From positions 51,160-115,159 of the forward strand of contig PEAN01000004.1 in the NCBI GenBank assembly GCA_002753735.1: DNA of 64,000 bases. The letters run 5' to 3'. Shown here piece by piece: positions 6,363 through 38,634 of the stretch (the first letter of the stretch is position 1; each line of letters starts with the position of its first letter). The DNA is from Magnetococcales bacterium DCbin4 (lineage in GTDB: Bacteria > Pseudomonadota > Magnetococcia > Magnetococcales > UBA8363). Under the pieces are notes generated by a model that was not told the DNA's origin, searched no databases, and saw nothing but the letters and a program-made list of their open reading frames with translations. Both the position numbers and the translations under genes were made by a program.

Positions 6363-6431
6363 ATTGAACCGCTCCATGATCGGAACAGGGGTTCCGGTCT
6401 GGAGCGGTGCTGTGGGATTCATCGCGCGGGA

Positions 6432-9733: not shown

Positions 9734-10031
9734 AGAATACCTTCATCCGTCAAAAAGACATCCGGGTTCAAGATGAATCTCCCAACGTCCTGATCTTAAC
9801 CGACCTGGAATCGTCTGAACTGCATGAGAAGCAAAAACCAGGCCATCCATGCCATGCCCGTTGGGCTTTCCTTGTTATCGTTATATTTTCTGTTGGGAAT
9901 CGGGCACAAGAATTCCACAAGTTCCAATAATGGAACAAGGTAGAATTTTTTTGCGCTCAGTTCAATGGCCAACCTTTACCCTGGAATCAAAAAAAATCCC
10001 AGGATTAACAATTTCGAGCCGCAAAATATGA

Positions 10032-16000: not shown

Positions 16001-17459
16001 CTGGCGTGGCGGTAAACTCAGTATTCCCGATCAGCTCGGCCAAAGTAATGGGTTCGGGAGCAGGGGTCGTGGGGAGTTGCTGGCCGACGGATTCGACCAC
16101 CACATCGCCCTTTTCAAATGCCCCACCCGTCCCGATCAGGTCGGCCAGGCTGCCAATATTGGCGCCCGTGCCAGCCGCGGCAGCCAGGGGGGAACTCTCG
16201 CCTCGTCCCGGATTCGTCGTTTCAGGAGTTTGCCCCTGGCCCGGGTCGGGGGACTCATCGACACCATCAGGTTTGGCCGTGTCATTGGCTTCGGCGTCCG
16301 CCTTTTCGGTGGGATCCTCGTCGATTCCTTCTTCCTTCTGGGCGGCTGCATCAGTTGCCTGAGCTTCTTTATTGTTACTGGCTTCCTCTGCCTTGGCCTG
16401 GGGTTTGTCACCCTGTTGGGGCGTATCGTTGCCCTGATTGTTCTGGTTGTCCTGATTGTTTTCCTTGACTTTTTCTTCCTTGGCCTTTTCGATGTCCAAC
16501 TGGCCGTTCAAACGATTGATGAACGTGTCGGGTGCCTTGAAGACCGGTGCAGGGGCACCGGCACCGAAAACGACCTGGGTGGCGGTGTTGGGTTCGATCA
16601 GGGTGACCGTTCCCTGTCCCTTGGCATCGGAAATGTCGAGAATGCCCGAAGTATGCACCACGGTGGTCGAACCATCGTCGGTGACCTCGCCTGAAAGTTC
16701 GCTGCCACGGATGCCGATGACCGCCGTGGGGGTCTTGATGGTGGAATGGCGTCCCGCATTCAAACCGGAGATGGCTCCGCTTTGAAAACTGAAGATTCCC
16801 TTGGTGACGGTTGCCTCGAATCCCCCCTGTTTGGCCTCGGGGTTGTAGATGAACTTGTCCAGGACCGCCTGCGCCCCTTCGCCCAGTTGAAAGCTGGTAC
16901 CATCGGGAAATGCCAGTTTGACCAATCCCCCTTTTTTGGTATACAGCACATCCCCTTTGTAGACGGCATCGCCCTCCTTGAGGGGGCGTTCCACGCCGTC
17001 CACCCCCTTGGCCATGACCTCGCCCATCAATTGTCCCACCTTGCCAATGGCAGCATTTGCCGGCGCGGCAGGATTTGCCGGTGGAACGTCCGCTTCCGGA
17101 ACCGCCGCCGGCGCCGTGGCATCATTCTGGGCGACCATGGTGGGTCCGGCGACCAGGGTTCCGGCCCGGGTGGGATCGATGGACAGCAGGGCGTTGATCG
17201 TGTCCGGCATGAGCAGGGCACCGTTGGGTGCTTTGAGGATCGGCTGGATTGCAGCGTCGAAATAACCCTCAATCGTCATTGATTGTCCGTCGGGGGTCGA
17301 GATGACCAGGTCGCCACCATGACGCACGTAGCGTCCATCGAGGAGCAGTTCCACGTTGGGCAGGGTGATTTCCGAATCCAGACCGCTGAGGCTCATTTCG
17401 CCAAGGTCGGCTTCAGGTAACGGAAGTTGCAGATCGGGGGAGGTGGGGTGAATGCTCAT
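10032..17459 (-). CDS. Giant modular surface/secreted protein: FecR-like domain, PEP-repeat linker, tandem cadherin/VCBS-like repeats, PPC-like domain, FG-GAP-like repeats, C-terminal Ca-binding region
   Basis: FecR-like [35 protein letters not shown]...[12 protein letters not shown]; repeated xDTPTGxxGTISTxEDTxYxF units; repeated DxFGxSVAIxGxxxxIGAP units; [11 protein letters not shown] and [15 protein letters not shown]. Confidence 0.85.
15751..15870. repeat. 12-bp coding tandem repeat, 10 units (gggatgggttcc), encoding PEPI/PEPx
   Basis: Six identical units at 15751-15822 followed by four variants to 15870. Confidence 0.95.
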
Positions 17460-17807: not shown

Positions 17808-20800
17808 TCATTGCATGAAGTTCATTAATTCCGTTTCATGGGATATGACATGATCCGGTTGAGGATCTTCATGCCATGAATGGAATCCATCAAGGATTGC
17901 GTCCGGGGTGATGTCGTCAAACCGGGTTGGCATCCAATCAGTGGTTCCTTGCATGAAGGGATCAAGGGGGGGTGGTGTGCTGCCAACATCCGATCCGACC
18001 GGCCCGTCGGAAAATAATGTCATGGTCTCCATGAACTTTTGGTCAAACGTCGCTGCATCCATTTCACTGGCTTGAGTCGTGGCCTCAGGTGGTGTTCCGG
18101 TGCCCGATTCATGGGCGAAACGAATTTCGGCCATGATGCCGGTCGTGCCGTCAACCTTCTCAAAACCGGCCAGCCCCGTGATGGTGTTACCCGCAAGACC
18201 GGTCCCTTCCGGTGTGGTCGCAGCGTCCAGGATCAGGGCTGAAATATTTTCATGGTCCAAATCGACCAGGTTTCCCTCCGAGGTCCACACCCGGAGTTCG
18301 CCGAATCGGGAATCGTGTTGATCAATCCGATGATCCTTATTTTCGTCCAGGGTTGCCAATGCCTCCAGACTGCCTTGGCTTCCGGGGGAAAAATATTCGG
18401 AGAACAGTTCGCGAATGTCGTCAATGACCCCATTGGCATTACGATCCATGACCAGCAATCCATCGCCGCCGCCGACCCAGCCGGTTCGATCCAGGGTGCC
18501 ATCCGCATTCATGTCGAAGGCGAAGGGGGCGGTCTCCACATTCGTCAGTTCGACGCCATCGCCATCCAGATCCAGTACCAGGGGATCGCCGCCCCACTGG
18601 TTGATGCTGGCCAGGACACTTCCCGCGTCACGATTGTCCAGGCTGGTATAATAGCTGAATGTCGCCGAGGCACCGCTTTCCAGGGAACCCACATCGAAGG
18701 TGATGGAAATTCCCTGATCTGCGGTGTAAACGGTCCCTGCCGCCGGGGCCGACTCATAGACGCCTGGATCATAAAGGTTGATGATTCTGAAACCGTCGTT
18801 GCCATATCCCGCTGTATACGTACCATTATAATAGGAGGGAAACGCCGAGACCTGGGCACGGGCATCATCGGAGTAGAACAGGACTGCGGCCTGGGTTTGC
18901 GTCAGCCCATGATAATAATCTCCGGGCAGGCTGAGGGCCTGGACCATGGAATTGTTGGCTTCCTGGTGGACGATGGTGTTGATCGTGGTGTAGTCCCCTC
19001 CCTGGTATTCGGTATTGTCGGGATCGAAGCTGCGCATGAAGCGGACACTGTCGATGGTGGCATCGCTCACGTTGGTCAGGGTGACAATATTACGGAAGAA
19101 CAGGCTGTTGACACTGAAACAAATGGATTGCTGGATCGCCAATGAACCATTGTAGGTCGCTGCAATCGTGGCGGACAGGGTACTGCCCGATGAAGTATCG
19201 GTGATCGATGAAATCGTGATGTCCGATCCCCCTTCAAGGGCCGAATTGGTGCCGATGTGGGGGGTTCCGGCGCTGTAATAGCCGACGGTCCAACGTTCTT
19301 CAGGGGATCCGGGAAGGAAAAAGTCGATGGCTGAATTGATTCCCTGGTTGAACCCGTCATGATCGAAGCTCATGCCGATGCGACTGTCGTTGGCCGTGCC
19401 ATAAAAGTCCGCCGGTTTGCCGCCCGTTGTCCCGAAGGAACCCAGGTGGGAGATGCCCAGTTCGATGTAATCCCCGCCCAGGAATACTTCGTTTCCGACC
19501 GTGGCGTGGTGAACCCCCGCCAGTGAAAGGGCGGGTTGGATGGTCAGGGAAAAGTTTTCTTCTGCAATGGTGTTGTCACCATCATTGACGGTGAAGGTGA
19601 ATTGATCAAGGGTGCTGCCATCATCTGAATGATTGTACCAAAGGGTTCCGGTATTGATGTCTTCCTGGGTGAAGGTGTCACCTGAAGTCAAAGCCTGGCC
19701 TGCCTTGGTCAGGGTCCCGTGGGTGGGGATGCTGGAAAGGGTATAGACCAGTTCAGGGGGGAGGGTGTCGTCGTCGGTGACGAGCAGGCGGGAGGTGGAG
19801 ATGATGACATTGCCACCATCGAAGAGCGAAGCGCCCACATTGGTGGAGAGGATCGGGGGATGATTGTACGTCAACGCAAAACTTTGTTCACTGAGGGTAT
19901 TGTCACCATCACTCAGGGAAAAGATGAACAGATCGTTGTTGCCCAACGGGTTTTGATCAAGGATGCCGTCGTGGGTGTAGCTCAGGAGGTTGCCATCAAT
20001 TTCCTGTTGGGTGAAGGTGTCCCCCGTGCCGAGGATCGTGCCATTACGATTCAGGGTTCCCAGGGAAGGGGGGGTGACCAGGGTGTAGACCAGTTCCGGG
20101 GCAGGGGTATCGATGTCGGTGGCCATCAGACGGGATGGAGTGATGATGACCTGAGCGCCTTGGGCGAAGGTGGTACCGGTATTGTGGGTGAGTTCAGGGA
20201 TGTCGTTGCTGGCGGCAATCGTGATGTCAAGCGCAGTGGTGCCGGTGCGTTCGCCATCAAAGACCGTGAATGAAAACTGTTCCGTGGTCGCCGTAATCCG
20301 GCTGTTGATGGCCTCCTCGTTGGGGAGGAACACGTAGGCGCCGGTGGTCGAATCCAGGTGGAGGGTTCCGTGGTCACCCGATTTGGACCGGTCGTAGTGC
20401 AGGTCATCAAGGGTCATGGAGGTGCCGCTACTGCCGGAAATATCGTAACTCAGGGGGCTGTTTTCAACGTCCGAGCCGACCAGGGTTCCTGTAGTCGGGG
20501 TGAACGTGTCCCGGATGATGGTGTCCACCAGCGCGATGGGTGCCACGGCGTTGAGTACCGGGGCATGGTTATCCGAGGCGGTGATGTTGACGTTGAGGTT
20601 GGCGGTTCGGGTGAGACCGCCGTCCGAAACGGTGACGATGAAGGATTCCGATGTACTTGAGGCCAGGCCGTTGAAATTGCCGGGAACGTGGAGATATGCC
20701 CCCGTTTCGCTGTTGAGGTACAGAGTCCCATGGAGTCCCGATTGCAACCGGTCATAGGTGACACCATTGATGGTGGTATTGCCGACGCTGCCACCCGCCA

Positions 20801-23800
20801 GGCCATAAATCAGGGTGCTGCCATCGGGATCCGATCCGTTGAGGATCCCCAACGTGTTGGCAAAGGTATCGGGGCCGATGGTATCGATGTACCTGATGAC
20901 CCCGGGGGCGGCCAACAGGGGCATGTCGTTGGTGGCGGTGACGTTGATGCTGAGCTGGGTCGTCGTACTGAAACTGCCATCTGAAGCGGTGAGTGAGAAC
21001 CCTTCCGTCGTATCGCCTGTCAACCGATTGAGGTTGGCGGGTACATGGAGATAGGCACCGGTGGCACTGTTGAGGTACAGGGTACCCAGCGTCCCTTCCT
21101 TGGACATCGTGTAGGTCGCAGTGCCGATGACGGTGTTGCCAAGGGTGCCGCCGGCAATGCCATAACGCAGGGTGCTGCCTTCGGGGTCCGATCCGTTCAG
21201 GATCCCGGTGACTGAAGAAAAAACATCAACGTGAAGCGTATCGATGTATCCGATGGGGGTCGGCGTTTGCAATGTCGGGGGGGTGTCGGTCGGTCGGATA
21301 TCGGCCGCCACGATGGGGTTGGTCGAACTGCTGAGCATTTGTTCGCGGGTGCCGTAGCCATCGGTGTAGGAGACCACGACCCGGATCCCCTGATTCACAT
21401 GATCCCCGGTCAGTGTGAGGGTGTTCGTCGTGGCACCGGTGATGTCGGTGCCGTTGGCCTGCCATTGATAGTGGAGGGGGCCCAATCCATCGGTATCGGC
21501 CAGGGTGCTACTGGCGGTCAGGGTTTTTCCGGCAGTGGTTTCTCCGCTGATGCTGACCGATCCCGTGGGGAGATGGTTGGTATGCTGGATGGAATCGGTG
21601 GGGCCACTGCTCATCCGTTCCACCGTGCCATAACGGTCCGTATAGCCTGCGACGACATGGATGGTCTTGCCGACATGGTGATCGGTCAGGATCAGCGTCT
21701 CACCCGTCGCCCCTTCGATATCGGTTCCGTTGGCCTGCCACTGGTAGTGGATCGTCCCCAATCCATCGGTATCCGCAAGGGTGTTGGCCGCAGTCAGGGT
21801 TGCTCCCGTTCGGGGCGTGCCGGTGATGCTGACCGATCCTGTGGGGGAATGGTTGACATGGGGAATCGTGAAGCTGAGGGTATTGGCCGCTGCCGCCTCG
21901 GCGGTGCCATCGTTGACCACAAACCGAAGGGTGACGGTGATGTCGCTGACCGTCGCGGAATAATGTAATCGCCCCTGCGCGATGTCACTGGCCGCAATCA
22001 CCTGGTTGGCCGATACCACCGTATCCCCGAGCAGCAGAACCCCCGCCTCGGGCAGCGTGTCGATCCGCACGGAAGCCATGGCATCATGATCCACATCAGA
22101 AAAACCGAAATCGCCCGGTTGGAACCGATGTGAACCCGAAACCTCCTGTGTCTTGTCCGTTCCCTGCGGTCTGTCGTTGACTGGAGTCACCTTCAGCCAG
22201 ACTGAAAATTCAGTATCGTCAAAGGCGGCTTCATCCTTGACCCGCACGTTGAAGTCAAACGTATCGTAGTCATCGCCAAAACGGTTCTCGTCAGGGTGAT
22301 AGGATAACAATCCCGCCTCAAGATCTTCCAGGGTGATTTCCTGGTTGATCATGACCATGGCGCCATCGAGCAGCAGGGAACCCCCATCGACACTTTGGAT
22401 GATCCTGATGCTGGCAAGGGTATCGATATCCTGTTCGTCCAGTCCCAGATCCCGGGGGAATAATATTTGAGTGGCATCTTCCGCCATCGTCAGATCCCAT
22501 CGGGTATCGACAGGGGGGATGAATATGGGACGGGGTGGAACAGGCGTTGGGTCCGGCACCGGCGTCGGTGTTGGGACAGGCTCTGGAACAGGCGTTGGCG
22601 TCGGGGTGGGCTCTGGAACAGGCGTCGGCGTCGGGGTGGGCTCTGGCACGGGCGTCGGCGTCGGGGTGGGCTCTGGCACAGGCGTCGGTGCTGGTTCTGG
22701 AGCAGGAGTCGGTGTTGGTTCTGGTGCAGCGGTCGGTGTTGGTTCCGGTTCGATCTGGGGTTCCAGCAAGGATTGCATGGTGTTTTGAACCGGGGTTGGC
22801 GTGACAAGGAACAGGTTCGGAGTCACTCCAGGAGTTGCGGTGAATTCAGCATTCCCCCCCAACAGATTGGCCAAAGTGATGGGTTCGGCGGTGGGGGTTG
22901 TGGTGACTTGTTGGCCGACGGCCTCGACGGTTACATCACCCTGTTCAAATGCGCCACCCGTCCCGATCAGATCGGCCAGGTTGCCAATGAAATCGGCGCC
23001 CGCACCACCGGCGGCCGGCAATGCGGGTTCCGCCCGTCCTGGAGCCGTGGTTTCGGGGGCCTGCCCCTGGCCTGGATTGGGGGCTTCGTCGATTCCTTCA
23101 GGGTCTCTGGCGGCATCCCGGGCTTCGGTGGTGGCTTCTTCGGCGGGGGTCTCGCCGATTCCCTCCTCATTTTGAGTGGTTGCTTCCGCTGCCGGAGCTT
23201 CCTTGTTATTATTGGTTTCTTCCGTCTTGGCCTGGGGTTTGTCGCCCGGTTGGGTCGTGTCGTTGCCTTGATTGTTCTGATTGTCCTGATTGTTTTCCTG
23301 GCCCTTTTCCCCCTTGGCTTTTTCGATGTCCAACTGGCCGTTCAAACGATTGATGAACGTGTCGGGTGCCTTGAAGATGGGTGCAGGGGCACCGGCACCG
23401 AAAACGACCTGGGTGGCGGTATTGGGTTCGATCAGGGTGACCGTTCCCTGTCCCTTGGCATCGGAAATGTCGAGAATGCCCGAGGTGTGGACCACGGTGG
23501 TCGAACCATCATCGGTGACCTCGCCTGAAAGTTCGCTGCCACGGATGCCGATGACCGCCGTGGGGGTCTTGATGGTGGAATGGCGTCCTTCATTCAACCC
23601 GGAGATGGCACCGCTCTGAAAACTGAAGATTCCCTTGGTGATCGTCGCCTCGAATCCCCCCTGTTTGGCCTCGGGGTTGTAGATGAACTTGTCCAGGACC
23701 GCCTGCGCCCCTTCGCCCAGTTGAAAGCTGGTGCCATCGGGAAATGCCAGTTTGACCAATCCCCCTTTTTTGGTGTATAACACGTCGCCCTTATAGACGG

Positions 23801-24263
23801 CATCGTCTTCCTTGAGGGGCCGTTCCACTCCGTCCGCCCCCTTGGCCATGACTTCGCCGATCAATTGTCCCACCTTGCCAATGGGGGGACTTGCCGGGGA
23901 TGGGGGGGCTGAAGGAACGGGGGTGTCGTTCTGGGCGACCATGGTGGGTCCGGCAACCAGGGTTCCGGCCCGGGTGGGATCGATGGTCAGCAGGGCGTTG
24001 ATCGTGTCCGGCATGAGCAGGGCACCATTGGGGGCCTTGAGGACCGGGGGGATTGCGGCGTCAAAATATCCTTCCACCGTCATCGATTGTCCGTCGGGGG
24101 TCGAAATGACCAGGTCACCACCCTGACGCATGTAGCGCCCTCCGAGGAGCATTTCCACATGGGGAAGGGTGATTTCCGAATCCAGATCGGTCAGGCCCGC
24201 ATCGCCAGGATCGGCCTTGGATGAAAGGGGGTGCGGTTCGGGGGGGGTGGGGTGAATGCTCAT
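17808..24263 (-). CDS. Giant modular surface/secreted protein, paralog of 10032-17459: FecR-like domain, PTPTPVPEP linker, Ig-like, VCBS-like and CSPG/cadherin-3-like repeats, C-terminal Ca-binding region
   Basis: N-terminal ~300 aa almost identical to paralog; GTLYLNSATGAYLHVPANLNRL VCBS-like units; TFAQGAQVIITPSRLMATDIDTPAPELVYTLVTPPSLGTLNRNG CSPG-like units; DLDGDGVELTN. Confidence 0.85.
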   Translation of the reverse strand: MSIHPTPPEPHPLSSKADPGDAGLTDLDSEITLPHVEMLLGGRYMRQGGDLVISTPDGQSMTVEGYFDAAIPPVLKAPNGALLMPDTINALLTIDPTRAGTLVAGPTMVAQNDTPVPSAPPSPASPPIGKVGQLIGEVMAKGADGVERPLKEDDAVYKGDVLYTKKGGLVKLAFPDGTSFQLGEGAQAVLDKFIYNPEAKQGGFEATITKGIFSFQSGAISGLNEGRHSTIKTPTAVIGIRGSELSGEVTDDGSTTVVHTSGILDISDAKGQGTVTLIEPNTATQVVFGAGAPAPIFKAPDTFINRLNGQLDIEKAKGEKGQENNQDNQNNQGNDTTQPGDKPQAKTEETNNNKEAPAAEATTQNEEGIGETPAEEATTEARDAARDPEGIDEAPNPGQGQAPETTAPGRAEPALPAAGGAGADFIGNLADLIGTGGAFEQGDVTVEAVGQQVTTTPTAEPITLANLLGGNAEFTATPGVTPNLFLVTPTPVQNTMQSLLEPQIEPEPTPTAAPEPTPTPAPEPAPTPVPEPTPTPTPVPEPTPTPTPVPEPTPTPTPVPEPVPTPTPVPDPTPVPPRPIFIPPVDTRWDLTMAEDATQILFPRDLGLDEQDIDTLASIRIIQSVDGGSLLLDGAMVMINQEITLEDLEAGLLSYHPDENRFGDDYDTFDFNVRVKDEAAFDDTEFSVWLKVTPVNDRPQGTDKTQEVSGSHRFQPGDFGFSDVDHDAMASVRIDTLPEAGVLLLGDTVVSANQVIAASDIAQGRLHYSATVSDITVTLRFVVNDGTAEAAAANTLSFTIPHVNHSPTGSVSITGTPRTGATLTAANTLADTDGLGTIHYQWQANGTDIEGATGETLILTDHHVGKTIHVVAGYTDRYGTVERMSSGPTDSIQHTNHLPTGSVSISGETTAGKTLTASSTLADTDGLGPLHYQWQANGTDITGATTNTLTLTGDHVNQGIRVVVSYTDGYGTREQMLSSSTNPIVAADIRPTDTPPTLQTPTPIGYIDTLHVDVFSSVTGILNGSDPEGSTLRYGIAGGTLGNTVIGTATYTMSKEGTLGTLYLNSATGAYLHVPANLNRLTGDTTEGFSLTASDGSFSTTTQLSINVTATNDMPLLAAPGVIRYIDTIGPDTFANTLGILNGSDPDGSTLIYGLAGGSVGNTTINGVTYDRLQSGLHGTLYLNSETGAYLHVPGNFNGLASSTSESFIVTVSDGGLTRTANLNVNITASDNHAPVLNAVAPIALVDTIIRDTFTPTTGTLVGSDVENSPLSYDISGSSGTSMTLDDLHYDRSKSGDHGTLHLDSTTGAYVFLPNEEAINSRITATTEQFSFTVFDGERTGTTALDITIAASNDIPELTHNTGTTFAQGAQVIITPSRLMATDIDTPAPELVYTLVTPPSLGTLNRNGTILGTGDTFTQQEIDGNLLSYTHDGILDQNPLGNNDLFIFSLSDGDNTLSEQSFALTYNHPPILSTNVGASLFDGGNVIISTSRLLVTDDDTLPPELVYTLSSIPTHGTLTKAGQALTSGDTFTQEDINTGTLWYNHSDDGSTLDQFTFTVNDGDNTIAEENFSLTIQPALSLAGVHHATVGNEVFLGGDYIELGISHLGSFGTTGGKPADFYGTANDSRIGMSFDHDGFNQGINSAIDFFLPGSPEERWTVGYYSAGTPHIGTNSALEGGSDITISSITDTSSGSTLSATIAATYNGSLAIQQSICFSVNSLFFRNIVTLTNVSDATIDSVRFMRSFDPDNTEYQGGDYTTINTIVHQEANNSMVQALSLPGDYYHGLTQTQAAVLFYSDDARAQVSAFPSYYNGTYTAGYGNDGFRIINLYDPGVYESAPAAGTVYTADQGISITFDVGSLESGASATFSYYTSLDNRDAGSVLASINQWGGDPLVLDLDGDGVELTNVETAPFAFDMNADGTLDRTGWVGGGDGLLVMDRNANGVIDDIRELFSEYFSPGSQGSLEALATLDENKDHRIDQHDSRFGELRVWTSEGNLVDLDHENISALILDAATTPEGTGLAGNTITGLAGFEKVDGTTGIMAEIRFAHESGTGTPPEATTQASEMDAATFDQKFMETMTLFSDGPVGSDVGSTPPPLDPFMQGTTDWMPTRFDDITPDAILDGFHSWHEDPQPDHVISHETELMNFMQ
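22561..22680. repeat. 30-bp coding tandem repeat (about 4 units) encoding the PTPTPVPEP-type linker
   Basis: Units of ggcgtcggcgtcggggtgggctctggcaca in register, with degenerate continuation to ~22745. Confidence 0.9.
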
Positions 24264-24536: not shown

Positions 24537-25673
24537 ATGACTGTATCAAAGGGACTTTCTGGGGGATTTCCTGGTATTGTGATTGGGTGGTTTCTGCTGT
24601 TTGTTTCCGGAGTGAATGCTGCTGCACCTGCGGATGACAAGGCACCCAGCCTGCTGAAAACGCCATCGGAGGCCTGCCAGTCGTGTCACAAGCTGATCCA
24701 TGAACAGTGGCAGAAATCGGCCCATGGGCAGCCATCCACGGCATCGCTGCTCTACCGGGCATTACTTCGACCGGATGCGGGTTGTGATAAATGTCATGCG
24801 CCATTGGCCAAGGATCAGGAACACTTTGCCAATGATGGTGCCGTTCCTTGCGTCGTCTGCCATACCCTGGAAACCTTCCGGCACGAGGCGAAGGGGGTGG
24901 GGGTGGAACTCTATTCGGTGAATGAACGCGTCGTTCAGGGACCGAACGGGGCATGGTTCGGAGCCAAGGGGGCGGTTCCCCCCGGGAGCGGTGATGAGGA
25001 GTTGGCGAGCAACCCGTTTTTCCACCATGCCAATCCTGAACTCTTCCGGACTCCGGTTGCCTGTCAGGGATGCCATGATCCTCAGAAGAAAGGGGATCCG
25101 AAGGCGTATTCCGTTGCCTGCCAAAACTGTCACATGCCGGTGGCGGGTGGTTTTGCCGATCATGGGACTCCGGCAGGGAAATCGTTACGGATGGTCAAAC
25201 GGGGTCCGATATTGTCGCTTCAGGCGGGTCGGGAAGGGAAGGATTTGAATATCCAGGTCAAACTGACCAATCTGTTGCCGCATCCTTTTCCCAATGGGGG
25301 TCCGTTCGTGGTCGGGGTGATGCGTTTGACGTTGTTGGATGCCCGGGGCGAAGTGTTGTGGGAAAATATCGAGAAGAAGAATATGGATCAGGATCCCAAG
25401 GCATTGTTTGCCTTGACGGTGGCTGATGACCTTGGACATCCGGCACCGCCCAGGGCCGTCACCACCCAACCGCCCAAGGAGAGCCGATTGAAGCCCGGTG
25501 AGACCCGTACTCTGGGATACCGATTGCAACAGCCTTCGGCGGCGCTGGTGCGTGCCGAGGTGATCGTTCTGCCTTTGGCGCCCTGGTGGTTGGACAAGCT
25601 GCCTGAAGGGAACAGGGAATTGCCCAAGGGACTTTTGGCAGCCAGAAGCGAGGTGAAACTGGCTGGACAATGA
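24537..25673 (+). CDS. Exported multiheme c-type cytochrome (5 CXXCH)
   Basis: Signal peptide from MTVSKGL; CQSCH, CDKCH, CVVCH, CQGCH, CQNCH. ORF open from 24489. Confidence 0.85.
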   Translation: MTVSKGLSGGFPGIVIGWFLLFVSGVNAAAPADDKAPSLLKTPSEACQSCHKLIHEQWQKSAHGQPSTASLLYRALLRPDAGCDKCHAPLAKDQEHFANDGAVPCVVCHTLETFRHEAKGVGVELYSVNERVVQGPNGAWFGAKGAVPPGSGDEELASNPFFHHANPELFRTPVACQGCHDPQKKGDPKAYSVACQNCHMPVAGGFADHGTPAGKSLRMVKRGPILSLQAGREGKDLNIQVKLTNLLPHPFPNGGPFVVGVMRLTLLDARGEVLWENIEKKNMDQDPKALFALTVADDLGHPAPPRAVTTQPPKESRLKPGETRTLGYRLQQPSAALVRAEVIVLPLAPWWLDKLPEGNRELPKGLLAARSEVKLAGQ

Positions 25674-25677
25674 TGTT

Positions 25678-26712
25678 ATGTTTTGGTGGGGACACACGAT
25701 GATCAGGACAAAGATCGGAACTGGGGTGAAGTTGTTGTGGGTGGTGATCCTGATGTTGGGGGTGGGCGTTTCGATGGCAGGGGAATATCCTGACCCGGCG
25801 AAATTTTCAGGACCCGATGCCTGTGGCAGCGAATGTCACAAGGGAGAGGTCGCCGTCTGGAAGGAGACCCGGCATGCCTTGACGTTCAAGGAAATGGAAA
25901 CCAGTGAGAAGGGCAAGGAAATTGCGGAGAAGATGGGGGTCAAACGGCCAAAAACCGCCGATGAGTGTGCTTTTTGTCATTTCACCCGGATGGTGGTTGA
26001 CGGCAAGGTTCAGGTGACGGCGGGTCCCACATGCGAATCGTGTCACGGTGCCGGTCGGGATTGGATCAAGATCCACGGTGACTACGGCGGCAAGGATGTC
26101 AAGAAAGAGGACGAAAAGCCCGAACACAAGGCACAACGTCTGGAACAATCGCTCAAGGGGGGATTGATTCCGCCCAAGGATCTTTATTTGTGGGTTCGCA
26201 ATTGTTTCTCCTGCCACCTGGGGCATGATGAAAAGCTGGTCAATGTCGGCGGTCATACCCCGGGCAGCAACATTGAACTGGTCTCCTGGACCCAGGGCAA
26301 GCCGGGGAAGGCGGGGTCCATCCGGCATAACGTATTCTATTCCAAAGATAATGTACCCGCATCCGTCGAGCGGCGGCGTTTGATTTTCGTCGTGGGACTG
26401 ATGACTGAAATTGAATATGGTCTGCGTGCCATTGGCAAGGCGACCCAGAAGGATACCTTTGCCACCAAGATGGCCCGCCGGGTCAAGACCGCCTGGGATA
26501 AACTTCAATTGGTTTCCCAGGCGGTCGAGATCAAGGAAGTCAAGGAATTGCTTGCCGGGACGGCCGCCATTGAAAAGGAACTCAAATTGAACAATTCAGC
26601 TCCGTTGAACCAATTGGCCGATAAAGTTGGCGTGGCGACAAAGACAGTGGCCCAGGGGTATGATGGCAAGGCGTGGGCGGCGGTGGATGGGATGATTCCC
26701 TATACCCCTTGA
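25678..26712 (+). CDS. Exported multiheme cytochrome, c554-like (start possibly 25699)
   Basis: Signal peptide; CGSECH (CX3CH), CAFCH, CESCH, CFSCH. Confidence 0.8.
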   Translation: MFWWGHTMIRTKIGTGVKLLWVVILMLGVGVSMAGEYPDPAKFSGPDACGSECHKGEVAVWKETRHALTFKEMETSEKGKEIAEKMGVKRPKTADECAFCHFTRMVVDGKVQVTAGPTCESCHGAGRDWIKIHGDYGGKDVKKEDEKPEHKAQRLEQSLKGGLIPPKDLYLWVRNCFSCHLGHDEKLVNVGGHTPGSNIELVSWTQGKPGKAGSIRHNVFYSKDNVPASVERRRLIFVVGLMTEIEYGLRAIGKATQKDTFATKMARRVKTAWDKLQLVSQAVEIKEVKELLAGTAAIEKELKLNNSAPLNQLADKVGVATKTVAQGYDGKAWAAVDGMIPYTP

Positions 26713-26799
26713 CGTGTTCCAGGGATTGCAAAAATAACGGTTAGAATATCAGGGGTTTTGCGGGTTTGCCCAAAAGCCCCTTTTTTTCTTGAATCATCA

Positions 26800-28083
26800 A
26801 TGTTCAAGGACCGACCCATGTCGCTGGTGGAACTTTCCGACCCATCACAACTGTTCTGGCTGTCCGGTTTCGTTTTTGTCGTGGTTGTGGCCATCCAGGG
26901 GGTGCTGTCACTGGTCGCTCTGTTTGGACGACAACGGTTGCAATCGCGTCTGGCACGGGAACAGTTGCAGCTCTTGAAAAACCAGGTGACCCAGACGGCG
27001 GCGCTCTACCAAACCCAGATCGACATGAAACGCTCCATCTGGTCGGGATTGCGCAAATTTCGCATCGTCAAGAAACAGTCTGAAGCACGCGACGTCGTCT
27101 CTTTTCACCTCAAGCCGGAGGATGGCGGGGCGTTGCCGGGTTATTATCCGGGTCAATTCTTGACCTTCCAGGTTTGGCCCCACAAGGGGGGTAAATCGGT
27201 GACCCGATGTTATTCCCTTTCCAGTTCGCCCCGGGAAACCGATCATTACCGGGTCACCATCAAGCGCATCGGTGCCGGTGTCGATGGCAAACCAGGGTTG
27301 GTGTCCAATTATTTCATCGATTCCCTCAATGAAGGCGATACGGTGGATGTCCGGTCCCCGGCGGGCCATTTTTTTCTGGATGAATCCCGTCCCGGGCCCG
27401 TTGTGCTGATTGGCGGTGGCGTTGGCATCACCCCCGTTTTCTCCATGCTTTCGGTTTTGGCAACGGCTTCGGTCCCACGGGATACCTGGTTTTTCCATGG
27501 GGTCAAGAATGGTGATCAACACCTGTGGAAGGAATCCCTGACGAACCTGGCCGCGGCTCGGGAACATATCCGTTTGCATGTCTGTTACAGTCAACCCAAT
27601 CCCGATGATCGCGAAGGGATCGATTATCACCATCGGGGCCATGTGGATATCGACTTGTTGAAACAACTGCTCCCCTCCAACAATTTTGATTTTTTCATCT
27701 GTGGTCCCGCGGCCATGATGAATTCGCTCGTCACCAACCTGCTGCAATGGGGGGTACCGGAAGGCCGTATTCATGTTGAGACCTTCAATCCCGCCAGTAC
27801 CCGGCGGGCCGAAGGATCCTCTGCCAGCAAGAGGAAGGTACGTTTCCTGCGTTCGGGCAAGGGGGGGACCTGGCCCGATGATGGTCAAACCTTGTTGTCC
27901 ATCGCTGAAAGCCTCAAGATCCCGATGGATAGCGGATGTCAGGTCGGCCATTGCGGGGCCTGCAAGACCGTCTTGAAGCAGGGCGAGGTGACCTATCAGA
28001 CGGAACCGAGCAGCCCGCCCGAACCGGGAACCGTCCTGGCCTGTATCGCCCTTCCCAAAACCGATCTGGAAGTGGATGCCTGA
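26800..28083 (+). CDS. Membrane-anchored FAD/NAD(P) oxidoreductase with C-terminal plant-type 2Fe-2S domain
   Basis: N-terminal TM; VTRCYSLSSSPRETDHYRVTIKR FAD motif; GPVVLIGGGVGITPVFSML NAD motif; DSGCQVGHCGACKTVL...LAC 2Fe-2S ligands. Confidence 0.9.
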   Translation: MFKDRPMSLVELSDPSQLFWLSGFVFVVVVAIQGVLSLVALFGRQRLQSRLAREQLQLLKNQVTQTAALYQTQIDMKRSIWSGLRKFRIVKKQSEARDVVSFHLKPEDGGALPGYYPGQFLTFQVWPHKGGKSVTRCYSLSSSPRETDHYRVTIKRIGAGVDGKPGLVSNYFIDSLNEGDTVDVRSPAGHFFLDESRPGPVVLIGGGVGITPVFSMLSVLATASVPRDTWFFHGVKNGDQHLWKESLTNLAAAREHIRLHVCYSQPNPDDREGIDYHHRGHVDIDLLKQLLPSNNFDFFICGPAAMMNSLVTNLLQWGVPEGRIHVETFNPASTRRAEGSSASKRKVRFLRSGKGGTWPDDGQTLLSIAESLKIPMDSGCQVGHCGACKTVLKQGEVTYQTEPSSPPEPGTVLACIALPKTDLEVDA

Positions 28084-28085
28084 AG

Positions 28086-29825
28086 ATGGGGATCACCGGC
28101 GCCACCAGACGGGATGGGGAGGAGGTGATGGATGAAGCCTTCGATCCGTTCATGAGCAACGAAACCCTGGAGCGGATTTTGGCACAGGATTTGTTTGCCA
28201 AGATGGACCCCTCTACCTTTCCCCCCTCCAATTCGTTGCGCCAGATCGTGCGTCGTCACACCCGTCTGCGAACTTTTCCCAAAGGGGTATTGGTGGTACG
28301 TGCCGGAGCCTATGGCAATTCCGCCTTCTACACGTTGGCGGGACGATTGCGCATCGTACTGCCGCCAGGGCTGCCAGATGACATCCTCGGGCGCATGACG
28401 ACCCGGCGCAAGGGGGCCTGGGAATTGTTGCGCCTCCTGTGGCAGCGGCATCCCCAATTCCCGGAGGTGCGGCAAATCCGCGATGATACCGACAGGGTGG
28501 GGACCCTGTCGGCCATGGACGACGACGGGGGTATTCACATCCGGCTCCCTTCGCTGGAAGCGGCTTTGCGGGATTACAAGACCATCGAACTGGAACCCCA
28601 TACCCTGTTTGGTGAAATCGGTGCTCTGACCCGTTTTCCAAGGAATGTCAGTGTCTTTACCGAGGAAGATTCGGAACTGGTCGATATTCGTTGGCAGGGA
28701 TTGCGCGATCTGCGCAAGTTCAATGAGGATTTTCGTCAACGGCTGGATACCCTGTTTCGTGAACGTTCCATCAAGGCGTTCATCAAGGATTCCTATCTGT
28801 TCCAACATTTGAGTCCCGAGGCCCAGGACGGCCTGGAACAATGGATCGGTTTTGAAACCTATGGCGACCTTGATTGGCGGGCGGAACATCGCCGGTTGTC
28901 CTTGAGTTCGCCCCGGCAACGGATCGAGGCGGAACCCTTGATTGCCCGGGAACGGGAATCGGCGGATCACCTGATCATGATTGTTTCAGGCTTTGCCCGC
29001 ATCAGTCAACGGCTCAACCATGGCCACAAAACGGTGGGATTTTTGGGACGCAACCGCTATTTCGGGTTGCCCGAGGTGATCGGAACCGGGAAGGAAGGTT
29101 CCAGGGAACGGTATGAATTCTCCCTGCGTGCCCTGGGGTATGTCCATGTCCTCAAGGTGCCCACCGACATCATGAGAACCCTGGTGGTTCCTGGTTTGCC
29201 CGCCCATCTCCGCCCTGCGGTTGGTGGTGCGGGGCCGCGGAAAAAAAAATGGTTCTCTCTGGCCAGACCACAGGGGCGGGACGGGTTGCAGGAGGGGTTG
29301 CTCGAATTTTTCGTGGAACATCGGATCATCAATGGAACCGCGACGATGTTGATTCATCTGGAACGATGTGTCCGCTGTGATGATTGTGTCGCCGTCTGTG
29401 CCAAACTGCACCAGGGAAACCCTCGATTTCTCCGCCATGGCAAACGCCATGGGGCCATCATGGTGGCGATGGCCTGCATGCATTGTCAGGATCCGGTGTG
29501 TATGATTGGATGTCCCACCGGTGCCATTCAGCGTGCCCCGGCCGGGGGACAGGTGGTGGTCAACGAGACCCTTTGTATCGGTTGCGCCTCCTGTGCCCAG
29601 AGCTGCCCCTATGAGGCGATCCGGATGGTGACGGTCCGCCACGGTGATGGTACCGTCATTGCCGATGCAACCACGGGCAATCAGGTCCAGAAGGCGACCA
29701 AGTGTGATTTGTGCCTTGAATATCCCAGCGCCCCAGCGTGTCAGTACTCCTGTCCGCATGATGCCCTGTACCGGGCCGACATGCGGGATACCCGGGGGTT
29801 GCGTCAATGGATGGCCCGCCGATGA
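28086..29825 (+). CDS. Cyclic-nucleotide-binding-like protein fused to a four-cluster 4Fe-4S ferredoxin domain (start 28086 or 28128)
   Basis: Two cNMP-binding-like modules (HTLFGEIGALTRFPRNVSVFTEEDSELV; VGFLGRNRYFGLPEVIGTG); Cys groups CVRCDDCVAVC, CMHCQDPVCMIGC, CIGCASCAQSC, CDLCLEYPSAPACQYSC. Confidence 0.85.
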   Translation: MGITGATRRDGEEVMDEAFDPFMSNETLERILAQDLFAKMDPSTFPPSNSLRQIVRRHTRLRTFPKGVLVVRAGAYGNSAFYTLAGRLRIVLPPGLPDDILGRMTTRRKGAWELLRLLWQRHPQFPEVRQIRDDTDRVGTLSAMDDDGGIHIRLPSLEAALRDYKTIELEPHTLFGEIGALTRFPRNVSVFTEEDSELVDIRWQGLRDLRKFNEDFRQRLDTLFRERSIKAFIKDSYLFQHLSPEAQDGLEQWIGFETYGDLDWRAEHRRLSLSSPRQRIEAEPLIARERESADHLIMIVSGFARISQRLNHGHKTVGFLGRNRYFGLPEVIGTGKEGSRERYEFSLRALGYVHVLKVPTDIMRTLVVPGLPAHLRPAVGGAGPRKKKWFSLARPQGRDGLQEGLLEFFVEHRIINGTATMLIHLERCVRCDDCVAVCAKLHQGNPRFLRHGKRHGAIMVAMACMHCQDPVCMIGCPTGAIQRAPAGGQVVVNETLCIGCASCAQSCPYEAIRMVTVRHGDGTVIADATTGNQVQKATKCDLCLEYPSAPACQYSCPHDALYRADMRDTRGLRQWMARR

Positions 29826-30643
29826 ATCATCGTTTCCTCCTTGGCCTGTCGGCTGTTCTGGTCTTTGCCACCGTGGCTGCGGTCTGGGTGAGCGAACGGC
29901 TGTTTCTTTCGTTTCTGGAAATTCCCGCCTATGTCTCCGGTTGGTTTTTGGTGGTGGCCCTGATGTTGGTGACCATCCTCCCTTTGCGTAAGAACATCGT
30001 CGTCCCATCGTTTGGGTCGGTTGCATTGTGGTATCGGATCCATCTGGTATGTGGGTTGTTGGCGGTGGTCCTGTTTTTTCTGCATCTGCCGTGGCGGCTC
30101 CCTTCGGGTGGATTGGAAACTTTGCTTGCGGTTTTGTTCGGCCTGTTGGCGGTGAGTGGCCTTGTAGGATTTGTCATCATCCAAATTTTTCCACGGCGTC
30201 TGACCCTCAAGGGCGAGGAGGTGTTCCTATCCCGCATTCCCGCACTGCGGGAACAATTGCGGGCGGAGGTGGAACAACGGGTTGTGGAGACCATTCATGA
30301 AACCGGTTCCACGACCTTGGCCGATTATTATACCACCAAACTCCATGATTATTTTGTCCGGACCCGTCACACCTGGACCCATCTGGTCGCTTCGGGTCGG
30401 CCAAGATTTTCAATTTTGACCGAAATGAATGATCTGATCCGCTATCTGGATGATCGGGAACGGGCGACCCTGGAAAAATTGATCAGCCTGGTCAAGAAAA
30501 AGGAAATTCTTGATGTTCATCATGCGTTGCAGGGGGCGTTGCGCCGGTGGTTGTTGTTGCATGCACCGCTGACCTGGGCGTTGTGGATGTTGATTGTGTT
30601 GCATGTGATCATGGCCTATGGCTTTCGCGAAGGGGTGCCATGA
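29822..30643 (+). CDS. Integral membrane b-type cytochrome-like protein
   Basis: Hydrophobic helices; two H-X13-H pairs: HLVCGLLAVVLFFLH and HAPLTWALWMLIVLH. ORF track start is 29807. Confidence 0.7.
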   Translation: MNHRFLLGLSAVLVFATVAAVWVSERLFLSFLEIPAYVSGWFLVVALMLVTILPLRKNIVVPSFGSVALWYRIHLVCGLLAVVLFFLHLPWRLPSGGLETLLAVLFGLLAVSGLVGFVIIQIFPRRLTLKGEEVFLSRIPALREQLRAEVEQRVVETIHETGSTTLADYYTTKLHDYFVRTRHTWTHLVASGRPRFSILTEMNDLIRYLDDRERATLEKLISLVKKKEILDVHHALQGALRRWLLLHAPLTWALWMLIVLHVIMAYGFREGVP

Positions 30644-32907
30644 AATATTCTCTGCAACCGACCGGTTACAAGGAGAGTGATTACGAGCGGCCGACCCCGG
30701 AGTGGGTGTGCGGCAAACAGCGCCAGGGAAAGACCTGCCGCCGTGGGCCCGATGCCGCTGGACAATGCCGTGGGCATGGGGAATGTGATCCGGTGCGGCG
30801 GGGGGATCGTTGGTTTTGCACCCGTCCCGAAACAGCGGGTGGTCCGTGTCGTCAGGGTCCTTTGCCGGATGGGGGGTGTGGACAACCGGTGACGCCGTGT
30901 ATCCCCTGTCGCAGTCATCGGGCCATCGTCAAACGGGTCACCCGGGCGGTCAGTGGACTGGCGATTGCGTTGTTATTGGTTTTCCTTTCAGGTTCGTGGC
31001 GTTTGGATCTGGTGGCGCCAGGCGATTTAAGCCCGCCTCATGCCGCATTGCAATCCTGCGCCCTGTGTCACAGCGCCTTCGAGGGGGGACTGCCCAACTG
31101 GCTGGTAGAGGCATTGGGGCGGGTCGTCCAGGGGCGGGATTCCGATTTGTGTCTCAAATGTCATCCCCGGGTCGCCCAGGCCCGCTGGCCCCACAACCTG
31201 AACCCGGATATTCTGGTCAAGCTCCAGAAGGAATCCGTCCAAAAGCAACACGATCCCCATTCCTTTCCACCCTTGCGTTTCGCCCCTTCCTGTTCGGTCT
31301 GTCATCGTGAACACACCGGTGGCGCCAAGGCCCCGATCATCCGGGATGCCTTGTTGTGCAACAGTTGCCATCGCAAGGCCATCGATGGTTTTTCCGTGGA
31401 CCATCCTGAATTCACCACCCTTTCCACCCCCAAGGGGCCGTTGGCCATCGATTTCGATCATGCCAGCCATTTCAAGCGTCATTTCCAGGGGAAGATGAAA
31501 GAACATGCGCCGACACGGTGTGGTGCCTGTCATCAACTTCAGGCCGATACGGGTCGGATGCTCCATGCCGGGTTCGACACGGCCTGTTCCGCCTGTCATG
31601 TGGATCAGATTCGTGGGGAATCCAGGGCCGGATTCAAGGGTTTCCCTGTGCTGAGCGTGCCGGGATTCGATACCCGCCCGATGCAGGAAAAGGCGATGAA
31701 TACGGGTCAATGGCCGGAGATGGCGGATGGGGAGTTGACGCCATTCATGCGCTGGTTGTTGCGCGACGATCCGAAGTTTGCCGCTGCCTGGAATCGACTC
31801 AAGGATCGGGATTGGTTGGATCTTGGGACATTGACCGGGGATGAAGCGGCGGCAGTCGCTGACATGGTATGGTCGATCAAAGGATTTTTCGGTGAACTGA
31901 ATGCCGGGGGGCATGAGGTTTGGGCCCGGCGATTCCATGGCGAAAAGAAGCTTCCCCCTCCGGGGGATGGTTGGGGTGCGATCAATGGCGGCTTGGAAGT
32001 CGATACCCTGAAGGGGGCGGTCGCGGCGTGGTTTCCCGATCTGGACCAGGAACTGACCCGGCATGGTCAGGGTGGTCCTGTTCCATATCCGGCGGTGCCG
32101 GCCAGGAAGGGGCGGTCATCAGAATCACAGGGGCGGGTTCAGGAGAATCCAGGGGAAAAAGCAACGGCCAAAGCTTCGGGTGCAGATGAGGGCCTGTTGG
32201 ATGATCAAGGCGGAGATGCATTGCTTGACGATGCGCCGAAGATTTCTCCCGTCAAGGTGGAAGAGGGGGTTTTGGACCAGGAACCGGCTGCGGCAGACAG
32301 TCTGTTGGCGGAGACGCCGGCCGCAGGGGATGGCAGTTTGTTGGATGCGGCGCCGGAACAGGGGAAAACCGGGGTCGAGTCTTCACCGCCCGTGCAGGTG
32401 AAGAAAATGGATGCGGAGGAATGGAACCGGGGTGGGGGTTGGTATCGGATGGGGTATGCATTGTATTACCGCCCAGGAGGTCATGGAGATCCATTCTTGC
32501 GTTCCTGGCTGCAACAGATGCGTCAGGAGTCAGGGGCTTCGGTGACGCCGTTGCGTGCGTTGTTGTCGGCGAAGAACGCTCCGGGCGAATGCAACAAGTG
32601 TCACCTCGATCTGTTTGCGCAGTCCAATGCCGAACTTTTGGCGAATCGTTCGTCAGAGGGATTGGAGATTCGGACCCTGACCCGTTTCTCCCACAAACCG
32701 CACCTGAAGGCATTGCATGACAATTGTCAGGAATGTCACACATTGGGAACCCCGCCGGCTGAGGAATCCACGTCGGCGGAAACGGTTGCACCAAGGACAC
32801 GTGGTTTCACGCCCATGCAACGCAAAGCCTGTGCTGACTGCCACACCCGGAACCGGGCGGGGGAGGATTGTTTGCAATGCCACAAATATCATGCGCGCCC
32901 AGAATAG
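30640..32907 (+). CDS. Membrane-anchored decaheme c-type cytochrome with Cys-rich N-terminal segment
   Basis: Ten CXXCH motifs (CALCH, CLKCH, CSVCH, CNSCH, CGACH, CSACH, CNKCH, CQECH, CADCH, CLQCH); nine Cys before a single TM. Start at 30640 overlaps the upstream stop; ORF track start is 30547. Confidence 0.85.
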   Translation: MKYSLQPTGYKESDYERPTPEWVCGKQRQGKTCRRGPDAAGQCRGHGECDPVRRGDRWFCTRPETAGGPCRQGPLPDGGCGQPVTPCIPCRSHRAIVKRVTRAVSGLAIALLLVFLSGSWRLDLVAPGDLSPPHAALQSCALCHSAFEGGLPNWLVEALGRVVQGRDSDLCLKCHPRVAQARWPHNLNPDILVKLQKESVQKQHDPHSFPPLRFAPSCSVCHREHTGGAKAPIIRDALLCNSCHRKAIDGFSVDHPEFTTLSTPKGPLAIDFDHASHFKRHFQGKMKEHAPTRCGACHQLQADTGRMLHAGFDTACSACHVDQIRGESRAGFKGFPVLSVPGFDTRPMQEKAMNTGQWPEMADGELTPFMRWLLRDDPKFAAAWNRLKDRDWLDLGTLTGDEAAAVADMVWSIKGFFGELNAGGHEVWARRFHGEKKLPPPGDGWGAINGGLEVDTLKGAVAAWFPDLDQELTRHGQGGPVPYPAVPARKGRSSESQGRVQENPGEKATAKASGADEGLLDDQGGDALLDDAPKISPVKVEEGVLDQEPAAADSLLAETPAAGDGSLLDAAPEQGKTGVESSPPVQVKKMDAEEWNRGGGWYRMGYALYYRPGGHGDPFLRSWLQQMRQESGASVTPLRALLSAKNAPGECNKCHLDLFAQSNAELLANRSSEGLEIRTLTRFSHKPHLKALHDNCQECHTLGTPPAEESTSAETVAPRTRGFTPMQRKACADCHTRNRAGEDCLQCHKYHARPE

Positions 32908-36455: not shown

Positions 36456-38618
36456 ATGGTCACCTTGAAACGGATCCTCATTGGAATCTTGTCGCTGGCG
36501 GCATCGGTTGCCCTGGTGTGGTGGTTGGCCCGTTCCTCAATGCCACCGCCGTCCGATGCCGGGGTGAAGGGGTTTGCGGAGACGAAGATCAGGCTGCGCT
36601 TTGGCCATAATTCCCCCGTGGACAGCGCTTTGCATCTGGCGGCACAGCGGTTTGCCGATGAGATGGCCCAGAAAAGCTTTGGCAGAGTGGAGGTCAGCAT
36701 CCATCCGTTTCAAGAGTTGGGCAACGATGATCAAATGTTGGAGATGGCACGGCAGGGGCGGTTGGATGTGGTATTGATTCCGACGGCCAAAATGAGCGTG
36801 GCGGTCCCTGCCATGCAGTTGGCTGATCTTCCATTCTACTTTCCTTCCCGCGAGGCGCTTTATCGTGTCCTTGATGGTGAGCCGGGACGGGTGTTGCTGG
36901 ACAAACTGCGTCCCATCGGTCTGGAAGGAATTGCCTTCTGGGAGAATGGATTCAAACATTATACCGCAAATCGACCCATTCACACCCCAGACGATTTCAA
37001 AGGGTTGAAGATCCGGACCATGAAGAGCCGGATCATCATGCACCATTTCAAGGAGATGGGCGCAACACCGATCCTGATCGACTTTCATTCAACCCGTCAG
37101 GCGCTGGTGGAAAACGTGGTCGATGGACAGGAAAATCCCCTGGTGGCGATCGTCGGGATGAAAATTCATGAAGTTCAATCCCACCTGACCATCAGTAACC
37201 ATGGTTATCTGGGATATGTCCTTTCTGTCAGTGCAAAAGTGTTTCAAAACCTCCCTTTGGACCTTCGTACCCTGCTCAAGGAAACGGGACGATCCCTGGT
37301 CCCCTTTGAACGGGCCGAGACTCAGCGCCGTGAAGAACAATTGCTTGAAACGATCCGACGAGCCGGGGTGACCATTCATACCCTGACTGAAGCGGAACGC
37401 AAACTCTTTGCTCAATCGGCAGAGCATATCCCCTATCAATTTGAATCTGTCATCAGTCCCGATGTCCTTTCCCGGGCCGAGGAGCTGCTGCGTGGCATGC
37501 GTACCGAACAGGAAAAGAAACATGAGATCGTGGTCGGATTCGACAGCGATCTTTCCACCATCGGAATCAGCAGCAGTCTGGGGATCAAACAGGGTGCCCT
37601 CCTTGCCATGAAGGAGATCAACGCCCGGGGAGGCGTTCTGGGACGGCGGCTGGTCCTGTGGAGCAGGGATGACAAGGCGATGCCTTCTTGTGGAATTGAA
37701 AATTTCAAAGACATGGCGTCAATGCCTGAAGTGGTTGCCATCCTGGGTGGTGTCTTCAGCAATGTGTCGGAATTACAGGCCAGGGAGGCGCAACAAATCG
37801 GAATTCCCTATCTGGTCTCCTTGGCGGCAGCGGCAGAAGTGGTCGAGCATGGGAAAGGACCCAATTATACCTTCAGGGTTTCGGCCAATGATCGTCTGGC
37901 GGGTCCTTTTCTGGTCCAGGAGGCGGTCAAACAGTTTGGCCGGGTCGCCCTGGTATTGGAAAACTCTTTGTGGGGGCGTGGCAATCATGAATCGATGCAA
38001 CGGTTCCTGGAATTGACAGGACGGACTCCAACCCATGTCGCCTGGATCAACCGGGGCGAACATGTGGGACCGTCCATGCTGGAGGAGATCAGAAGGTCGG
38101 GTGCCCAGGGGATTGTCCTGGTTGCCAACACCATGGAAGGGGCTTCTTTGGTACAGGCGATGGCTCGTGACCTGACCTGGGGGAAGAAGCCGCTTCCGAT
38201 CATTTCCCACTGGGGGATCGTCAGTGGCGATTTCTGGTCGTTGGTCCGTCCCCTGCACCCCGGAATCAACCTTCAGGTGTTGCAAACCTTTTCTTTTACT
38301 TTTCATCCCAAGGAAAACTCGGAACGGGTGTTGAACCTGTACCGCACATTTTTCAATGAGACGGGTGGGGTCAACGCCCCGGTCGCCATTGCTCAAGCCT
38401 ACGATTTGATCCACCTGCTGGCTCAGGCCATCATCCAGGCGGGGACGACAGAACGCAAAGCCGTGCGGGACGCCCTGGAATCGTTGGCAGAGTATCCGGG
38501 CCTGATCAAACGGTACAACCCCCCTTTTACGCCGGATCGTCACGATGCCCTGAATGCGGATGATTATTTTCTTGCCCGGTTCAACCAGGATGGTCAACTG
38601 ATCGGAATTGATCGATGA
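36456..38618 (+). CDS. Fusion of TRAP DctP-type and LivK/Peripla_BP-type solute-binding domains
   Basis: DctP: FGHNSPVDSALHLAAQRFADEM...FEWN-like FWENGFKHYTANRPIHTPDDFKGLKIRTM; LivK: GIKQGALLAMKEINARGGVLGRRLVLWSRDDKA. Confidence 0.8.
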   Translation: MVTLKRILIGILSLAASVALVWWLARSSMPPPSDAGVKGFAETKIRLRFGHNSPVDSALHLAAQRFADEMAQKSFGRVEVSIHPFQELGNDDQMLEMARQGRLDVVLIPTAKMSVAVPAMQLADLPFYFPSREALYRVLDGEPGRVLLDKLRPIGLEGIAFWENGFKHYTANRPIHTPDDFKGLKIRTMKSRIIMHHFKEMGATPILIDFHSTRQALVENVVDGQENPLVAIVGMKIHEVQSHLTISNHGYLGYVLSVSAKVFQNLPLDLRTLLKETGRSLVPFERAETQRREEQLLETIRRAGVTIHTLTEAERKLFAQSAEHIPYQFESVISPDVLSRAEELLRGMRTEQEKKHEIVVGFDSDLSTIGISSSLGIKQGALLAMKEINARGGVLGRRLVLWSRDDKAMPSCGIENFKDMASMPEVVAILGGVFSNVSELQAREAQQIGIPYLVSLAAAAEVVEHGKGPNYTFRVSANDRLAGPFLVQEAVKQFGRVALVLENSLWGRGNHESMQRFLELTGRTPTHVAWINRGEHVGPSMLEEIRRSGAQGIVLVANTMEGASLVQAMARDLTWGKKPLPIISHWGIVSGDFWSLVRPLHPGINLQVLQTFSFTFHPKENSERVLNLYRTFFNETGGVNAPVAIAQAYDLIHLLAQAIIQAGTTERKAVRDALESLAEYPGLIKRYNPPFTPDRHDALNADDYFLARFNQDGQLIGIDR

Positions 38619-38634
38619 TCTTCGGCAACGGACA

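Follow-up and report, generated by a model that had tools for sequence, protein, structure and literature searches.

The window analysed here, 64,000 nucleotides of contig PEAN01000004.1 of Magnetococcales bacterium DCbin4, contains at positions 24537-32907 six genes encoding, in order, two exported multiheme cytochromes c, a flavin adenine dinucleotide (FAD)-dependent reductase, a protein combining cyclic-nucleotide (cNMP)-binding domains with four [4Fe-4S] motifs, a membrane cytochrome b and a decaheme cytochrome c. The genome (4.5 Mb, 96% complete) has metagenome-assembled genomes (MAGs) of Magnetococcales as its nearest named relatives, by search and in the tree. A preliminary description of the locus had presented these genes as a packed, same-strand set, and we found all six frames open on the + strand; the ATG codons at 29822 and 30640 each overlap the preceding TGA as ATGA, confirming the arrangement from which translational coupling had been proposed. 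A promoter and terminator scan of the region gave matches close to the shuffled level. Between the second cytochrome gene and the reductase gene it marked a terminator-like hairpin with a T run (about 26762-26789), a kind of match that is little commoner than in shuffled sequence. Profile annotation with Pfam and NCBIfam, which had been suggested as a check, assigned FAD_binding_6, NAD_binding_1 and Fer2, two cNMP_binding stretches, DmsB/HydN-type 4Fe-4S domains, PF13435 and c7-type multiheme domains to the set.

The reductase (26800-28083, 427 amino acids; its start may be 26800 or 26818) has an N-terminal membrane helix and matches PF00970, PF00175 and PF00111, ending in a plant-type 2Fe-2S domain. 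By sequence, its matches in the PDB are flavohemoprotein and phthalate dioxygenase reductase structures, and it reaches none of the NCBIfam equivalog cut-offs. It shares its FAD, NAD and 2Fe-2S modules with NqrF, Hcr and PaaE-type reductases; the order FAD-NAD-2Fe-2S is that of PaaE and Hcr, and NqrF also has an N-terminal membrane helix.

The following gene (28086-29825, 579 amino acids, or from the in-frame ATG at 28128, where orthologues begin) encodes the cNMP-binding iron-sulfur (FeS) protein. Two stretches match PF00027 (E 1.8e-19, 69.9 bits against a cut-off of 27.5). The first domain (28248-28700) contains an insert and the phosphate-binding cassette FGEIGALTRFPRNVSV, for which the consensus is FGEIAALSRTPRTATI; G176, E177 and R183 are invariant in 81/81 sequences and R186 is kept in 80/81. 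The second (28917-29183) also has a Pfam match and is degenerate, lacking a normal cassette in the 81-sequence alignment. At the C-terminal end, a DmsB/HydN-like region (29343-29795) with matches to Fer4 families carries 16 cysteines in four motifs for four [4Fe-4S] clusters, all of them invariant in 81/81 sequences. This region matches HycB3 and NrfC-type structures in the PDB, and the protein reaches none of the NCBIfam equivalog cut-offs for DmsB/HydN-type four-cluster ferredoxins. The preliminary description of a four-cluster protein fused to two cNMP modules therefore stands for the clusters and the first module, while the second has degenerated.

The third component (29822-30643, 273 amino acids) is a membrane cytochrome b. 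Its AlphaFold2 model (mean predicted local distance difference test score, pLDDT, 90.6) shows five long membrane helices, with a helical, predicted cytoplasmic domain between the fourth and the fifth. Two different helices carry H74-X13-H88 and H247-X13-H261, and these four histidines are kept in 75-76 of 77 sequences. The charges at the helix ends suggest a cytoplasmic-side position for H74 and H247 and a periplasmic-side position for H88 and H261. The window protein matches no Pfam family above cut-off (Ni_hydr_CYTB, E 0.028, falls below it). Members of its family are weakly similar to DUF4405, b561 and ferric-reductase domains; PF01794 is matched in 4/48 members (best E 0.0036) and not in the window protein. 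In NADPH oxidase and ferric reductase flavocytochromes b, an NAD(P)H-FAD module feeds two b hemes stacked between two helices with paired histidines. The cytochrome b of the cluster resembles this superfamily in having two helices, each with a histidine pair some 13-14 residues apart. However, in the superfamily FAD contacts heme directly, whereas the cluster has an FeS relay, a decaheme exit and only weak sequence similarity to it.

The last gene (30640-32907, 755 amino acids) encodes, as had been claimed, a decaheme cytochrome with 10 CXXCH motifs, and exactly 10 are found in 65/68 relatives. A transmembrane-like segment at residues 95-128 provides a single predicted anchor. Ahead of it lies a Cys-rich domain (30682-30909), probably cytoplasmic, with two C4 units formed by Cys 24, 33, 43, 49 and Cys 60, 70, 80, 87. 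This domain (motif YERP..WVCG...) is conserved in more than 70 relatives and has no Pfam match; for each of the eight cysteines there are 73-74 covering sequences, 73 or 74 of which retain it. One relative (G007; L011 / L126) has a break in the domain, with residues 1-33 in one frame and those from 63 onward in another.

The two remaining genes encode exported cytochromes, also as previously described. The tetraheme protein (25678-26712, 344 amino acids) is of the c554 type (PF13435, E 1.4e-10, 42.4 bits against a cut-off of 20.8), with three CXXCH motifs and one CX3CH. The pentaheme protein (24537-25673, 378 amino acids, five CXXCH) is accessory to the cluster, and its high-score matches come from close relatives only; it also has a weak local match to ExtKL NF040886.

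The neighbourhood was then followed in other genomes. A scan of 85,462 species genomes yielded 371 relatives, and the 80 best loci among them were retained, each with up to 10 kb of flank. Loci were selected by the cNMP-FeS gene, and profiles of all six proteins were run over all their frames. They span about ten phyla (Pseudomonadota, Verrucomicrobiota, Planctomycetota, Acidobacteriota, Nitrospinota, Nitrospirota, SAR324, Latescibacterota, Zixiibacteriota, Poribacteria and Kiritimatiellota), labels being taken from MAG titles, some of which clearly belong to mislabelled bins. The titles of L092, L114, L091 and L102 (Klebsiella, Akkermansia, Rhizobium) look wrong in this way, and the Klebsiella-titled locus groups inside Verrucomicrobiota in the tree.

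Our results show that the genes travel together, which the preliminary description had left to be checked. Where the flank was sufficient, reductase, c554-type protein, cNMP-FeS protein, cytochrome b and decaheme protein were all present in 51/56 loci. Cytochrome b and decaheme genes follow the cNMP-FeS gene in 70/70 loci with room for them; the reductase gene precedes it in 52/62 and occurs anywhere in the locus in 59/62. Among 61 relatives searched, 10 carry cNMP-FeS orthologues with the same neighbours. An independent search of these 61 with the cytochrome b alone matched 12 genomes, nine of which carry the cNMP-FeS gene and three a divergent form of it, and no genome that lacks both; the locus of the tenth cNMP-FeS genome, where it was not matched, ends at a contig edge. 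Chance proximity of all parts was rejected on these grounds, that is, the 51/56 full loci and the confinement of the cytochrome b to genomes with the cNMP-FeS gene or its divergent or fused form. The distance matrices of reductase, FeS protein, cytochrome b and decaheme correlate with r of 0.82-0.90. Because only 13/299 sampled genomes of the phylum carry an orthologue (10 of the 13 in the order of the window genome), the distribution is patchy; no plasmid relatives were found.

The c554-type protein, present in 58/62 loci, is the most constant exported part, and the pentaheme family resembles, weakly and locally, multiheme families for nitrite and tetrathionate. Both observations would suit a dedicated dissimilatory reductase, with the c554-type or pentaheme protein as terminal enzyme acting on some small substrate in the periplasm and the other parts supplying its electrons. 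However, no catalytic multiheme family was matched over cut-off in Pfam or NCBIfam, and genes for hydroxylamine, nitrite or tetrathionate reductases were not seen among the recurrent neighbours, in flanks annotated non-exhaustively. We regard this explanation as quite unlikely.

The strongest argument for placing flavin, FeS, heme b and heme c on one path comes from gene fusion. In two other Magnetococcales of the same order (G013 and G045), a single open frame of 1120-1125 residues joins a Pyr_redox-type FAD module, two cNMP domains, four 4Fe-4S motifs and the cytochrome b at its C-terminus. The cNMP domains of the fused protein are canonical (152.8 bits in G013), and its flavin module belongs to another family than the window reductase and occupies the same position. 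In the product of the heme gene that comes next, an FHA-like domain and a membrane helix are combined with nine CXXCH motifs. A third genome, G048, has the same module order, with the cytochrome b encoded separately and a protein with 10 hemes. At L127:11953-13653, L128:6323-8143 and L129:10262-12028, the fused protein or its split form is adjoined by multiheme cytochromes in which a cytoplasmic FHA-like domain precedes the membrane helix, and such domains make phospho-dependent control possible in this sister system. Taken with the co-occurrence of the five genes, these Rosetta-stone fusions of flavin, cNMP, FeS and cytochrome b support the earlier view of the cluster as a trans-membrane wire.

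Hmc, Qrc, Tmc and Dsr-type complexes of sulfate reducers likewise join a cytoplasmic-type 4Fe-4S protein, a membrane protein and a periplasmic multiheme cytochrome, and use NrfD/DsrP or DsrM-type quinone-interacting subunits. No such subunit was seen in the cluster, and those complexes have no cNMP domains. The recognised inner-membrane entries to multiheme pathways form three families, CymA, CbcL/MtoC/MtrH and ImcH, and are quinol oxidases or quinone reductases (PMC6295460). By analogy with them, and given the weak similarity of the family to b561 and ferric reductase domains, the cytochrome b might oxidise or reduce menaquinone, with the FAD/FeS arm as a side branch, as in CbcL or a Qrc/Hmc-type quinol:multiheme complex. 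But the reductase and cNMP-FeS genes are conserved nearly as tightly as the cytochrome b, the fused form holds a flavin reductase in the same chain, and the cluster shows no NrfD-type quinone subunit; we consider a quinone-linked system unlikely.

The closest idea among known systems is CbcL/MtoC/MtrH of Geobacter and iron-cycling bacteria, in which, as in the cluster, multiheme c is combined with an inner-membrane di-heme b module. Yet CbcL is one polypeptide with menaquinol as donor, a HydC/FdnI-like six-helix b module and no flavin or cNMP part, whereas the cluster has cytochrome b (29822-30643) and decaheme (30640-32907) as separate genes, five helices with four invariant histidines, and an FAD/2Fe-2S and cNMP-4Fe-4S arm.

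On balance, we lean towards the cluster being an NAD(P)H:multiheme-cytochrome-c oxidoreductase that spans the inner membrane. NAD(P)H would reduce FAD and then 2Fe-2S in the membrane-anchored reductase, and electrons would continue through the four [4Fe-4S] clusters of the cNMP-binding protein, a step that the first cNMP domain may gate. They would then cross the membrane via two b hemes, held by H74/H247 on the cytoplasmic side and H88/H261 on the periplasmic side, to reach the membrane-anchored decaheme cytochrome, which would pass them to two soluble periplasmic cytochromes, the tetraheme c554-type and the pentaheme one. A porin-type barrel, present in some lineages, suggests that electrons there continue across the outer membrane. 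What the analysis shows directly is the set of genes with its cofactor motifs, their conservation, the fusions and the co-occurrence; formation of a complex, placement of the hemes, electron direction, use of NADH or NADPH, gating and its nucleotide, and the terminal acceptor are what we infer in this reading.

That barrel belongs to an extended cluster found in other phyla. In about 20 loci of several phyla, a protein of about 650 residues with exactly five CXXCH motifs is encoded beside the reductase in a recurrent order, and the window pentaheme protein is related to it in its first three-heme region (profile comparison: probability 97.8, E 9.8e-13, 71 columns). A protein of about 490 residues, also beside the reductase, accompanies it in 16 of these loci. 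It is predicted to be an outer-membrane barrel (mean pLDDT 72.6); by fold, it comes closest in the PDB to porins and exporters, MOMP and AlgE among them (best E 3e-12). A predicted outer-membrane barrel in the cluster, the mark of a porin-cytochrome extracellular conduit, is thus porin-like by fold in these 16 related loci and does not occur in the window genome. He et al. 2017 (PMC5615132) described clusters of Verrucomicrobia, Opitutus-like bacteria among them, that encode an octaheme periplasmic cytochrome and a porin of at least 20 transmembrane motifs, and proposed extracellular electron transfer. The cluster studied here also occurs in Verrucomicrobia, but in its extended form the barrel is smaller and the accompanying cytochrome is a pentaheme protein, and cyclic nucleotides, FeS proteins and cytochrome b are unmentioned for the clusters of He et al.

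Elsewhere in the window genome (L133, G000:C42:13000-30797, 6072-12046, minus strand) lies a separate outer-membrane conduit locus, encoding a 10-heme, 370-residue MtrA-like protein, an 831-residue porin of the MtrB/PioB family and a 9-heme protein of 665 residues. This MtrA-MtrB-like locus could work either way, and multiheme pathways are known in both directions (PMC6295460). The anatomy of the cluster is also symmetric, and electrons might run in reverse, with periplasmic donors feeding the decaheme protein, then heme b, then the FeS clusters and finally NAD(P)+. However, the cluster showed no energy-coupling subunit (Rnf, Nqr or antiporter-like) to power the uphill reduction of NAD(P), and we judge reverse flow decidedly improbable.

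Within the oxidoreductase reading, cyclic-nucleotide control of the cluster would be a reasonable idea, because the cassette is conserved and cyclase genes occur at the loci. In 42 loci we counted 15 class III nucleotide cyclase genes against 1.6 expected from genome counts, with CHASE2, GAF, 7TMR-DISM or TM2 architectures, and another class III cyclase gene adjoins the divergent cNMP-FeS gene of G048 (L131). We tentatively propose, as a possibility that we do not consider the probable outcome, that cyclic AMP, cyclic GMP or a related molecule, on binding to the cyclic-nucleotide-binding domain of the 4x[4Fe-4S] protein, would switch on or off the export of electrons from NAD(P)H to multiheme cytochromes, such second-messenger gating extending over about ten phyla.

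Several points weigh against the oxidoreductase reading and its extensions. It rests on sequence and models; sequence does not settle which way electrons flow, and the cytochrome b may contain a quinone site. A Foldseek search of the PDB with the model of the cytochrome b gave no relative, and the correlated distances partly reflect species history. The window cassette deviates from the consensus at N187 and V188, two less strict positions. The cyclase signal comes mostly from one verrucomicrobial clade and, collapsed to clades, falls to about 3 versus 0.5 (p ~0.01, post hoc); because of this concentration the association is suggestive only. As for the outer membrane, a single search of the window genome did not find the barrel gene of the extended cluster, and relatives that carry the cluster have MtrB-type porins no more often (3/10) than relatives that lack it (12/51), so that a link between the two across relatives was rejected. 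For these two reasons it is possible, and not implied, that electrons reach the cell exterior.

The surroundings of the cluster in the window contain further genes. On the - strand at 6432-9733, an outer-membrane efflux protein adjoins a TPR protein that ends in a mono-heme cytochrome c domain; beside them lie two giant open reading frames (10032-17459 and 17808-24263), the second adhesin-like. On the + strand at 36456-42672, a gene for a 720-residue protein that resembles, by eye, a fusion of a TRAP-type binding protein with an ABC-type substrate-binding protein overlaps the start of a gene for a 1354-residue hybrid histidine kinase.

No characterised counterpart of the six-gene set was found in Pfam, NCBIfam equivalogs, the PDB (by sequence and fold) or the open-access PubMed Central literature, in line with the initial impression that it matches no named respiratory complex. 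If the oxidoreductase reading is true, an NAD(P)H-linked entry that bypasses quinones would change models of electron disposal in mostly uncultured groups, among them Magnetococcales, Verrucomicrobiota, Planctomycetota, Acidobacteriota, Nitrospinota and SAR324. A cyclic-nucleotide pocket within an electron-carrying FeS protein would, if true, be a direct link between signalling and respiration. Four uncharacterised families, namely the cytochrome b, the two-C4 domain, the pentaheme protein and the barrel, gain a testable context.

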